Positions 27,588-31,182 of a stretch of 64,000 nt of DNA are shown here, piece after piece. This DNA is from Actinocatenispora sera (GTDB lineage Bacteria > Actinomycetota > Actinomycetes > Mycobacteriales > Micromonosporaceae), in the NCBI RefSeq assembly GCF_018324685.1, contig NZ_AP023354.1:3658001-3722000 (forward strand), written 5' to 3'. Each line of letters starts with the position of its first letter. Position 1 is the stretch's first letter. The notes below the pieces were generated by a model. The model was not told the origin of the DNA, searched no databases, and was given only the letters and a program-made list of their open reading frames with translations. The translations under genes and the position numbers were made by a program.

Positions 27588-28049
27588 ATGGCACTCGACG
27601 ACGATGACATGAACACGACGGCAGCTGGCGGCGGCGAGGGCCCGGCGGACTCCGGTGCGGGTGGTGGTACGCCGGGCATGCATGACGGTGGCGCGGACGG
27701 TGGCGCCGATTCCGGTGCGGAGGGTCCGGCGGACTCGGGCGCGGGTGGCGGTACGCCCGGCATGCACGACGGCGGCGCCGATTCGGGTGCGGAAGGTCCG
27801 GCGGATTCCGGGGCCGGTGGTGGTACGCCGGGGATGCACGACGGTGGCGCGGACGGCGGCGCCGATTCCGGTGCGCAGGGTCCGGCGGATTCCGGCGCCG
27901 GTGGCGGTACCCCGGGGATGCACGACGGCGGCGCGGACGGCGGGGCCGATTCCGGTGCCGAGGGTCCGGCGGATTCCGGGGCCGGTGGTGGTACGCCGGG
28001 CATGCACGACGGTGGCGCGGACGGCGGGGCCGACTCCGGTGCCCGCTGA
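27588..28049 (+). CDS. Gly/Asp/Ala-rich tandem-repeat peptide, candidate multi-core precursor
   Basis: 153 residues from ATG 27588 with GGGGGA upstream. A 16-residue acidic head (MALDDDDMNTTAAGGG) is followed by five repeats, starting at 27636, 27720, 27792, 27876 and 27960, and a final Arg. Each repeat has the order GPADSGAGGG, TPGMHDGG, ADGGADSGA. Repeat 2 lacks four residues and repeat 4 starts with Gln in place of Glu. There is no Cys, no signal peptide and no membrane segment. Each repeat has exactly one Met and one His. The JmjC oxygenase gene overlaps its 3' end. A multi-core post-translationally modified peptide is the simplest hypothesis; a structural linker or acidic binding protein is the alternative. 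No known family is recognised. Confidence 0.85.
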   Translation: MALDDDDMNTTAAGGGEGPADSGAGGGTPGMHDGGADGGADSGAEGPADSGAGGGTPGMHDGGADSGAEGPADSGAGGGTPGMHDGGADGGADSGAQGPADSGAGGGTPGMHDGGADGGADSGAEGPADSGAGGGTPGMHDGGADGGADSGAR

Positions 28050-29319
28050 GCCGACCGGCTCGATCGGCGGTGTCGGGCGGTCCACGGCGGACCGTCCGGC
28101 CCGGCCCACCGGCCCGCTCGCCCGGCTGGTCGGCACCGACGTCGACGCGTTCGCCGGCTCGTACTGGTCGCGCCGGCCGCTGCTGGTCCGCGGCGCCGAC
28201 CCGGACGCCTTCCGCGACCTGCTCGATCTCGACGGCGTCGACGAACTGCTGTCGTACCGCGGCCTGCGGACCCCGTTCCTGCGGGTGGCACGGGAGGGCT
28301 CGGTGGTCGACTCCGCCTCGTTCACCGGTCCCGGCGGGGTCGGTGCGGAGATCGGCGACCAGGTGCGCGACGACCGGGTCGCCGCGCTGTTCGCCGACGG
28401 CTGCACGCTGGTGTTGCAGGCGCTGCACCGCACCTGGGCGCCGATCGTGGACTTCGGTACCGCGCTGGCCGCCGAACTCGGCCATCCGGTACAGGCCAAC
28501 GCCTACGTGACGCCTCCGTCGTCGCGGGGCTTCGCCGCGCACTACGACGTGCACGATGTGTTCGTGCTGCAACTGGCCGGCCGCAAGCACTGGCGGGTGC
28601 ACCCGCCGGTACACGTCGACCCGCTGCGCGACCAGCCGTGGAACGATCATGCCGCCGCGGTGGCCGACCGGGCCGCCAACGGCGTACCGGAGATCGACAC
28701 GGTGCTCGCGCCCGGCGACGCGATGTACCTGCCCCGCGGCTGGCTGCACGCGGCCACCGCGCTCGGCGACGTGTCCGCGCACCTGACCGTCGGGGTGCAC
28801 GTACTGACCCGGTTCGCACTGCTGGAGGCGCTGGTCGCGAGCGTCGCGCAGGAGCCGGACCTGCGCCGCTCGCTGCCGCTCGGCATCGACGCGACCGACC
28901 CCGCCCAACTCGCCCCGCACCTCGCCGCGGTCCGGATCGCGCTGGCGAAGGCGGTACCGGACGTGCCGGCGGAGGCGGTGGCCCGCCGGGTGCGCGCCCG
29001 GGTCTGGTCCGCCGGTCGGCCGGAACCGGTGCGCCCGGTGGCCGCCGCGCAGTTCGCCGCGAACCTGTCGCCCGGCGATGCGGTACGGCGGCGGGCCGGG
29101 CTGCCGCACCGGCTGGTCGAGGGCGACGAGCACGCGGTACTGGAGCTGGCGGACCGGCAGATCCGGCTGCCGGCGTCGACGACCCCGGCGCTGCGGGTGC
29201 TGCTCGCCGGCGGTACCGCCCGGATCGGTGCGCTGCCGGAGCTGACCGAGGCGGACCAGCTGGTACTGGTGCGCAGGTTGTTGCGGGAGGGCGTGCTGGT
29301 GCCGTCGACCGGGTCGTGA
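28039..29319 (+). CDS. JmjC-domain (cupin-4/ROXA-like) 2-oxoglutarate oxygenase
   Basis: 426 residues from GTG 28039, overlapping the repeat-peptide gene by 11 bp. The JmjC core has the iron ligands His168 and Asp170 (AHYDVHDVF) and His237 (RGWLHAA), and the 2-oxoglutarate-binding Lys is likely in GRKHWRV. A helical dimerisation region and a C-terminal winged-helix-like domain (residues about 340-426) match the bacterial ROXA/YcfD ribosomal-protein hydroxylase group. Such enzymes hydroxylate protein Arg or His side chains. The neighbouring peptide offers His and Asp in every repeat, so it is the obvious candidate substrate, but a ribosomal-protein substrate is not excluded. Confidence 0.92.
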   Translation: MPAEPTGSIGGVGRSTADRPARPTGPLARLVGTDVDAFAGSYWSRRPLLVRGADPDAFRDLLDLDGVDELLSYRGLRTPFLRVAREGSVVDSASFTGPGGVGAEIGDQVRDDRVAALFADGCTLVLQALHRTWAPIVDFGTALAAELGHPVQANAYVTPPSSRGFAAHYDVHDVFVLQLAGRKHWRVHPPVHVDPLRDQPWNDHAAAVADRAANGVPEIDTVLAPGDAMYLPRGWLHAATALGDVSAHLTVGVHVLTRFALLEALVASVAQEPDLRRSLPLGIDATDPAQLAPHLAAVRIALAKAVPDVPAEAVARRVRARVWSAGRPEPVRPVAAAQFAANLSPGDAVRRRAGLPHRLVEGDEHAVLELADRQIRLPASTTPALRVLLAGGTARIGALPELTEADQLVLVRRLLREGVLVPSTGS

Positions 29320-29320
29320 C

Positions 29321-30214
29321 GTGCGCACCTGGCCGCGCTGCTCGTTTCTTTCCGAGGCGGCCGGTGATCCGCGGGAAGGGACCGCGCCGCCGGCGGACCG
29401 CTGGCTGCTGATCGAACATCCCGGACCGTGGGGCCGCAACGCGCTCACCCAGTCCGGTCTGGGCGCCGGCACCGTGAGCGCGCTGAGCGGCTGGGCCGGC
29501 GCGCAGGGGGCCCGGGTGACGCTGATCCGCCGGCCGGGTCGGCGGGTTCGGTCGGGAGCGGCCCGCCGCTGGTTCCGGGTCGACTCGCGGCCGGGCCACG
29601 AGGAGATCCGGGCCGGCTCGTTCGGTACCGACGCCGACCTGGTCGCCGCGCTCGCCGCGCCCGGCGAGCGCGTCGCCGGCCCGCTGCAGCTGGTCTGCGC
29701 GCACGGCCGGCACGACCCCTGCTGCGCCGTGCGCGGGCGGGTGCTGGCCGCGGCGCTCGCCGCCGCCGACCCAGCCGGTACCTGGGAGTGCAGCCACGTC
29801 GGCGGGTGCCGCTTCGCGCCGGTACTGGTGCTGCTGCCGCACGGCTACACTCTCGGCGGTGTCCCGCCCCCCGACGCGGTGCGCATCGTGCGGGACTACC
29901 GCGCCGGCACGCTCGACCCGCACTGGTTACGCGGCCGTACCTCGCTGCCGCCGGCGGCGCAGGCCGCCCAGCACCATGCCCGGGCCGCCACCGGGGCCAC
30001 CGGGGTGGACGCGGTGCGGGTGGTCGCGGTCGAGCAGGTCGGGGAGGCGGGCTGGCGGGTCACGCTGGCCGACCCGGACTGCACGGTGCTGCTGCGCGAG
30101 CGGCACGTGGCCGCCGGCCGCCCGCTGACCTGCGCGGCCACCACCAACGGCTGGCTGCGCCGGTTCGACCTGCTGGACCTGCGCACCGACCGCACCGCCC
30201 CGCACCCGCCCTGA
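29321..30214 (+). CDS. Sucrase/ferredoxin-like [2Fe-2S] protein
   Basis: 297 residues from GTG 29321, one base after the JmjC stop. Residues about 115-200 contain the thioredoxin-like ferredoxin motifs CAHGRHDPCCAVRGR and WECSHVGGCRFAP, whose Cys likely bind a [2Fe-2S] cluster. The family is called sucrase/ferredoxin-like, although sucrase activity is doubtful. As the third gene of the repeat-peptide unit it may deliver electrons or iron to the oxygenase, or be a separate redox protein. The operon is supported by spacing. Confidence 0.9.
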   Translation: MRTWPRCSFLSEAAGDPREGTAPPADRWLLIEHPGPWGRNALTQSGLGAGTVSALSGWAGAQGARVTLIRRPGRRVRSGAARRWFRVDSRPGHEEIRAGSFGTDADLVAALAAPGERVAGPLQLVCAHGRHDPCCAVRGRVLAAALAAADPAGTWECSHVGGCRFAPVLVLLPHGYTLGGVPPPDAVRIVRDYRAGTLDPHWLRGRTSLPPAAQAAQHHARAATGATGVDAVRVVAVEQVGEAGWRVTLADPDCTVLLRERHVAAGRPLTCAATTNGWLRRFDLLDLRTDRTAPHPP

Positions 30215-31066: not shown

Positions 31067-31106
31067 CGCGCCACCGCGCCACCGCGCCACCGCGCCACCG
31101 CGCCAC
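31067..31106. repeat. Five perfect tandem 8-bp repeats
   Basis: CGCGCCAC is repeated five times without change in the 363-bp gap 31010-31372 between the CBS protein and the GH3 gene. It is a simple-sequence repeat with potential to vary in number. No gene is seen in that gap. Confidence 0.8.
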
Positions 31107-31182
31107 CGGTACCCGGCATTCCGGCAACGGACGCGCGGTCGCCGGGGCCGTGCGGTGCGGATGTTAGGGGCAAAACAACCGT

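Follow-up and report, generated by a model that had tools for sequence, protein, structure and literature searches.

The JmjC enzyme FIH, the asparaginyl hydroxylase of HIF, hydroxylates Asp in ankyrin repeats and can act on Asp, Asn, or His residues of repeat proteins, according to the accessible part of the literature on it (PMC4543633). Among ribosomally synthesized and post-translationally modified peptides (RiPPs), the available portions of two reports describe the JmjC ornithine hydroxylases BipG and BpmG and the cupin-like PbsQ, which act on the biphenomycin precursor (PMC12257519, PMC12707348). Available sections of a further study describe fusions of a RiPP recognition element (RRE) with JmjC domains (PF08007), together with bacterial JmjC homologs, ~30% identical to the fish and algal ones, that lie in RiPP-like contexts (Bregman et al. 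2025, PMC12710340). The multi-core graspetide corallotide is associated with a 2-oxoglutarate (2OG) oxygenase, and SmaO hydroxylates Asp to β-hydroxy-Asp in a RiPP, as related in the part of PMC13097080 at hand. Here we describe a locus in a 64,000-nucleotide stretch of Actinocatenispora sera contig NZ_AP023354.1 (the whole of which is called the window) where a gene for a multi-unit, precursor-like peptide, a gene for a JmjC oxygenase, and a gene for a ferredoxin-like protein follow one another on the plus strand. The first two form a pair that is conserved across many actinobacteria.

The peptide is encoded by an open reading frame (ORF) at 27588..28049 (stop codon included), which begins with ATG and specifies 153 residues. 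Its leader-like N terminus, MALDDDDMNTTAAGGG (27588..27635), carries the motif L-x-[DE]3-[IM]-x-T, which is conserved among the related peptides, and is followed by five core units at 27636-27719, 27720-27791, 27792-27875, 27876-27959, and 27960-28043. These units, delimited with the program TRF (array 27636-28042, period 84 bases) and by unit comparison, measure 28, 24, 28, 28, and 28 residues, respectively. The oxygenase gene (28039..29319) is read from a GTG at 28039, the start given in an earlier note on this DNA, and shares 11 bp (28039..28049) with the end of the peptide gene, an overlap that makes translational coupling of the two genes likely. A gap of 1 bp separates its stop codon from the GTG start of the third gene (29321..30214), which encodes a Suc_Fer-like, thioredoxin-like [2Fe-2S] protein. 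Pfam assigns the second protein to JmjC_2 (PF08007; E 4e-26), the third to Suc_Fer-like (E 6e-15), and the peptide to no family; against NCBIfam, the peptide gives only repeat-region look-alikes far under the cut-offs. Within its own 7.04 Mb single-contig genome the peptide matches itself and, weakly (E 1e-3, 32% identity), one other sequence. Across the 20 residues common to all five units, 13 of the 20 codon columns vary, and the codon differences over all unit pairs, which are not independent of one another, comprise 66 synonymous and 0 non-synonymous changes, indicating that the repeats are held at the protein level. The number of units is variable within the genus, with three in a sister genome (G398) compared with five in the window.

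Conservation of the peptide-oxygenase pair

A search with the JmjC protein of the window yielded 15 loci in the genome_contigs collection, 12 of them with usable upstream DNA, and a match at E≤1e-20 in 58 of 396 evenly drawn Actinomycetota genomes, so that 73 loci were examined in total, the window included. Close relatives were delimited by E≤1e-36, a cut set after viewing the match list; loci L081 and L087, which are at contig ends, were left out, as was match G256. An Asp-rich repeat ORF lies directly upstream of the JmjC gene, on the same strand, at 61 of the 63 untruncated loci that pass this cut, with presence judged by eye and start codons set by hand. The two loci that pass the cut and have no such peptide are L059 and L095, and none of the eight loci with weaker JmjC matches has one. 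We also applied a scripted rule that requires a start codon, a DDD[IM]xT-like motif within the first 28 residues, and at least 12% Asp afterwards. For this test, and for the count of Suc_Fer genes given below, L095 (E 1e-37) was grouped with the outgroup because the tree places it beyond both clades on a long branch, and the number of loci is hence 62. The rule is satisfied at 51/62 loci (those missed being L005, L013, L051-L055, L057, L059, L061, and L083), compared with 0/9 outgroup JmjC loci, L095 included, and 5/8326 other ORFs in the same DNA. In the reciprocal search, one peptide with a core of the kind found in the window (type A) was compared with the 396 genomes and gave 12 strong matches (E≤6e-7), all 12 of which adjoin a JmjC gene, as well as seven weaker matches (E 4e-5 to 3e-4) in six genomes, which lie away from JmjC genes by their coordinates. 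High-GC genomes hold many long spurious frames, and the peptide gene might on that account be taken for a low-complexity ORF that lies beside the oxygenase by chance, or for an annotation artefact. This explanation is refuted by the difference between 51/62 and 5/8326, by the 66 synonymous and 0 non-synonymous differences, and by the 12/12 reciprocal matches at JmjC genes.

The pair is present in 49 of the 396 evenly drawn genomes. Within the Micromonosporaceae, the JmjC gene occurs in 84 of 150 genomes, and a type-A peptide accompanies it at all 30 loci examined outside Actinocatenispora; in Actinocatenispora itself, three of four genomes have the JmjC gene. The whole-genome collections searched consist of Actinomycetota and imply no absence from other phyla. 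Distant JmjC genes from outside the phylum (L016 from Bdellovibrionales, L017 from Burkholderiaceae, and two on cyanobacterial plasmids) have no Asp-rich repeat ORF in the upstream stretches viewed. In a quick tree of the JmjC proteins, which carries long-branch warnings, the enzymes that accompany the two main peptide kinds, A and B, fall into two clades with the outgroup JmjCs outside. The peptide kinds track these clades, with 2 and 4 label changes compared with shuffled means of 20.6 and 25.2. The earlier note had read the five-unit, 153-residue peptide, the 11 bp overlap, and the 1 bp gap as a precursor lying before its modifying enzyme; the layout is borne out, and the pairing gains support from its recurrence at 61/63 loci. 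That note also held that homologous JmjC genes with no repeat peptide nearby would speak against the idea. Such genes do occur and are confined to the margins of the two clades or lie beyond them (L059, L095, and the 8/8 weaker loci). We consider it very probable that the peptide is a dedicated partner that the oxygenase acts on or with.

Leader-like motif, variable cores, and candidate target residue

By regular expression, L-x-[DE]-[DE]-[DE]-[IM]-x-T is found near the N terminus of 54 of the 61 peptides, and five more have near variants, while the cores that follow are of different kinds (A, B, C, and D). Kind A, in 24/61 peptides, has the pattern EGPADxGA...xDGGAD, and kind B, in 35/61, consists of DADGTDGDATD runs with ~32% Asp. 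The core of L070 is made of SADGTDQGVxGGTxGPRDA repeats, and that of L093 of two copies of PTEDDENLDAPGEHSQDTGDE. When the 55 peptides scanned, out of 61, were compared with Pfam no family was found, and NCBIfam gave a single daptide match (E 0.009) beside weak repeat look-alikes. A conserved leader joined to a variable core is a feature of RiPPs, as is a precursor gene beside the gene for its modifying enzyme, the arrangement seen at the 61/63 loci and at the further 30/30 Micromonosporaceae loci. The residues common to all 61 cores are Asp, Gly, and Ala alone; His is in 29 and Lys in 10, and Cys is in none. Successive Asp residues are most often spaced by 4 in kind A and by 3 or 2 in kind B. 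The peptides thus retain their N-terminal address and the spacing of Asp while the rest varies, as would be expected of a leader and core in which Asp is the target. In the L096 peptide (L096:789-1064), units alternate between TDADG and TDANG, showing that Asn can replace Asp at one place, as for an enzyme that accepts both Asp and Asn.

The oxygenase has the residues and fold of an Fe(II)/2OG hydroxylase. In an alignment of the window protein with 60 of 64 relatives (L066, L081, L084, and L095 were dropped), the facial triad H168, D170, and H237 (codons 28540-28542, 28546-28548, and 28747-28749), which forms the HxD...H iron site, is present in all 61 rows, as is K183, a candidate 2OG ligand encoded within 28039..29319. 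Two arginines, R82 (61/61 rows) and R131 (60/61), could bind an acidic substrate. The structural model, with a predicted local distance difference test (pLDDT) score of 93.2, shows the double-stranded β-helix fold of the ribosomal oxygenase (ROX) group. By sequence and fold its closest relatives in the PDB are NO66, then MINA53, YcfD, and YxbC, with FIH farther away; the best Foldseek match is NO66 (4ccn; E 2e-28, 25% identity), compared with E 6e-10 for FIH.

We put the probability at roughly 0.58 that the pair is a RiPP-like two-gene, multi-core system in which the JmjC enzyme carries out leader-guided hydroxylation of Asp. In this process, the L-x-[DE]3-[IM]-x-T motif at the N terminus would serve as the recognition site by which the enzyme binds the peptide, and the enzyme would move along the disordered acidic repeats, hydroxylating many times per peptide. 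The predicted site of attack is the β carbon of Asp in A-D-G/S and x-D-G sequences, and the product would be an acidic polymer rich in β-hydroxy-Asp that probably binds metal ions. Where it is present, the [2Fe-2S] protein would probably supply electrons that keep the JmjC iron reduced, or would serve a redox metal held by the product. Metal binding is the weakest step of this scheme; it is suggested by the acidity of the core and by the occurrence of hydroxy-Asp in siderophores. A broader proposal, which we regard as possible but doubtful, is that the peptides form a phylum-wide class in which most Asp residues become β-hydroxy-Asp, yielding an encoded poly-hydroxyaspartate metal-binding polymer that is retained in or on the cell, with a core that can vary provided that the N-terminal address and the arrangement of Asp are preserved. 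Such a polymer would serve ordinary physiology, since the pair is highly frequent.

Several observations weigh against Asp hydroxylation guided by a leader. The nearest solved relatives hydroxylate His (NO66 and MINA53) or Arg (YcfD), not Asp, and Thr is found in 60/61 cores and Ser and Pro each in 57/61, so that these residues could also be targets. The peptides of L052 and L055 have no leader motif, and the JmjC proteins of L059, in clade A, and L107, on a long branch in clade B, have no such peptide. The C-terminal winged part of the oxygenase departs from the strict βββ-ααα order of an RRE, its modeled order being four strands, a helix (379-389), a strand, a helix (404-416), and a strand. 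Finally, no protease or transporter recurs within ~5 kb of the 73 loci, where a general protease would not show; this absence would be unusual if the peptide were an exported RiPP.

The first of these points bears on the identity of the modified residue. The peptide could be the substrate and yet be hydroxylated on His, Pro, Thr, or Ser, a reading that we judge unlikely. It draws on the activity of NO66 and MINA53 as His hydroxylases, on the wide occurrence of Thr, Pro, and Ser, and on the presence of His in 43 of 54 type-A cores. The unit-position counts were made on these 54 type-A peptides, which comprise 165 units, and the position preceding DGGAD is occupied by H in 98, Q in 19, R in 18, S in 14, E in 10, V in 4, N in 1, and T in 1, so that 67/165 units lack His there. 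His is also missing from 32/61 cores, which removes it as a common target, and occurs in just 8/35 type-B cores, whereas Asp is in every core and sets the repeat period. Because Asp is found in 61/61 cores and His in 29/61, Asp rather than His is likely the target. The earlier suggestion that both the His and the Asp of the repeated unit are hydroxylated therefore keeps its Asp part as plausible and loses its His part.

The peptide might instead be a binding partner of the oxygenase, such as an acidic inhibitor, a scaffold, or a metal donor, with the enzyme acting on a ribosomal or other protein. Ribosomal proteins are named as substrates in the PDB titles of NO66, MINA53, and YcfD, no dedicated protease or exporter recurs near the loci, and the frequency of the JmjC gene in Micromonosporaceae (84/150 genomes) is more housekeeping-like than that of a natural product. 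A binding partner would, however, need neither 2-5 repeated units nor a full exchange of the core between clades with retention of the N-terminal motif, a pattern that is typical of leader and core, and we consider this role rather improbable. A third possibility, that Asp is taken beyond hydroxylation to a keto group, aminomalonate, a crosslink, or backbone cleavage, with the hydroxyl only an intermediate, has precedents in SmaX, which turns β-hydroxy-Asp into aminomalonate (as cited in the available part of PMC13097080), and in ApyHI, which turns Asp into an α-keto acid (as cited in the available part of PMC13060819). These oxidases may belong to other families, and the solved JmjC_2 relatives are hydroxylases, making this outcome very improbable.

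An accessory ferredoxin-like gene and the surroundings of the pair

The earlier note assigned the ferredoxin-like protein an assisting role in the modification, and its standing as a required helper is weakened by its distribution. A Suc_Fer gene follows the pair at 51/62 loci, on the same strand and at -14 to +91 nt relative to the stop codon of the JmjC gene. It is not beside the pair at the other 11 loci (one of them cut by a contig end), nor at any of 28 loci from other Micromonosporaceae genera (L122 being cut there). In five genomes with the pair (G204, G278, G279, G181, and G178, the last two being incomplete at 81-83%), a genome-wide search gave no Suc_Fer match at E≤1e-8, and three genomes without the pair hold an unlinked copy. 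Because it is missing beside many pairs and has unlinked copies in genomes that do not have the pair, we regard the Suc_Fer gene as accessory. Thioredoxin-like ferredoxins of the Apd1/Aim32 type have CX8C and HX3H ligands, as described in the accessible part of PMC8482512. The Suc_Fer protein resembles them in CX8C (C126 and C135 in the window) and a conserved His (H159), which are found in all 50 aligned proteins. It differs from them at the fourth ligand place, where the second His of HX3H is found in 0/50 proteins and is replaced by Asp in 41/50 and by Cys in 9/50, the window protein being among the latter. Its fold match to an Aquifex thioredoxin-like ferredoxin is weak (E 5e-3, TM 0.68 over a short target).

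The JmjC protein of the window is 67-74% identical to copies from Pseudonocardia and Saccharopolyspora, compared with ≤57% to those of other Micromonosporaceae genera. Because of this higher identity, and because other Micromonosporaceae genera lack the Suc_Fer gene, the JmjC/Suc_Fer cassette (28039-30214) probably entered Actinocatenispora from the Pseudonocardiaceae. No relative was found in viral contigs or in phages (E≤1e-10), and the plasmid relatives, in 20 records, are <60% identical, with none spanning 80% of the query. Among ORF clusters within ~5 kb of the 73 loci, wide recurrence is limited to JmjC, Suc_Fer, and frames that overlap these two, and neighbor clusters confined to Pseudonocardia look like plain synteny. 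PADLOC had no match for any of the three proteins of the window, and a defence system was rejected as a candidate.

Small ORFs also precede some more distant JmjC genes. On Streptomyces clavuligerus plasmid NZ_CP065235.1 (L143:3308-4703), an annotated 48-residue hypothetical protein that begins MDDKKTSLEPDEIEVI and has an Asp-Pro rich end is encoded just upstream of a more distant JmjC, which aligns with 63% of the query at 38% identity; these two genes are a relative of the pair with another kind of core, from an organism in laboratory use. A small ORF on the reverse strand of L140 (2747-2962), which contains LRLEDVEVV and has an HxD- and DPSDP-rich end, resembles the S. clavuligerus one and lies upstream of a JmjC paralog with 36% identity. 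Close relatives of this paralog are rare (3/396 genomes at E≤1e-60). L103 and L105 each have, before an outgroup JmjC gene, a small ORF with GRSDGND at its end, and these ORFs are possibly another precursor family. At L138:1751-3067, the 36% JmjC paralog comes after a long frame that resembles a SagB-type nitroreductase by eye. Elsewhere in the window, a perfect 8-bp tandem repeat, CGCGCCAC, is present in 5.2 copies at 31067-31108, flanked by ORFs for a CBS-domain protein and a glycoside hydrolase of family 3.

Comparison with described systems

Neither the peptide nor the pair was found described in the open-licence literature of PubMed Central (PMC), a collection that mostly does not extend to subscription papers, and the pair appears to represent a class of modified peptide not described before. 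If leader-guided Asp hydroxylation is correct, a RiPP-like class that needs no more than one peptide and one oxygenase, the minimal toolkit, would be spread over the Actinomycetota, and bacterial JmjC_2 enzymes would gain a peptide substrate of their own. The many-fold hydroxylation of Asp in disordered repeats would be added chemistry, and the pair would be an encoded source of β-hydroxy-Asp polymers.

The oxygenase shares its fold, HxD...H triad, and pocket Lys with NO66, MINA53, and YcfD. The substrates of those enzymes are ribosomal proteins, whereas the present JmjC gene is immediately preceded by one for a peptide. FIH, as covered in the available text, is likewise a JmjC hydroxylase that accepts Asp in repeat proteins, and this precedent supports the proposed Asp hydroxylation; it is a more distant fold match (E 6e-10) and acts on HIF and on folded ankyrin repeats. 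The homologs of Bregman et al. belong to the same Pfam family, PF08007, and their bacterial members may include the present family. The available sections of that study (PMC12710340) describe no precursor, repeat peptide, or class, and the C-terminal domain of the present enzymes does not follow the strict βββ-ααα order. Corallotide and the SmaO system, as far as the available text describes them, resemble the pair in their repeated core motifs with a 2OG enzyme and in β-hydroxy-Asp within a RiPP, respectively; those clusters have an ATP-grasp enzyme, and none recurs at the present loci. Biphenomycin offers a JmjC-type Fe/2OG hydroxylase that acts on a ribosomal precursor peptide, a likeness drawn from the accessible descriptions. 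MNIO, arginase, and B12 radical SAM enzymes are absent from the recurring ORF clusters at the present loci, where they were not searched for by name. In biphenomycin biosynthesis, as the accessible descriptions present it, the JmjC enzyme is one tailoring enzyme among an MNIO, an arginase, a B12 radical SAM enzyme, and a protease, and the precursor carries a short aromatic motif; here, the JmjC oxygenase is the sole enzyme found repeatedly beside the peptide, whose core consists of Asp-rich repeats.

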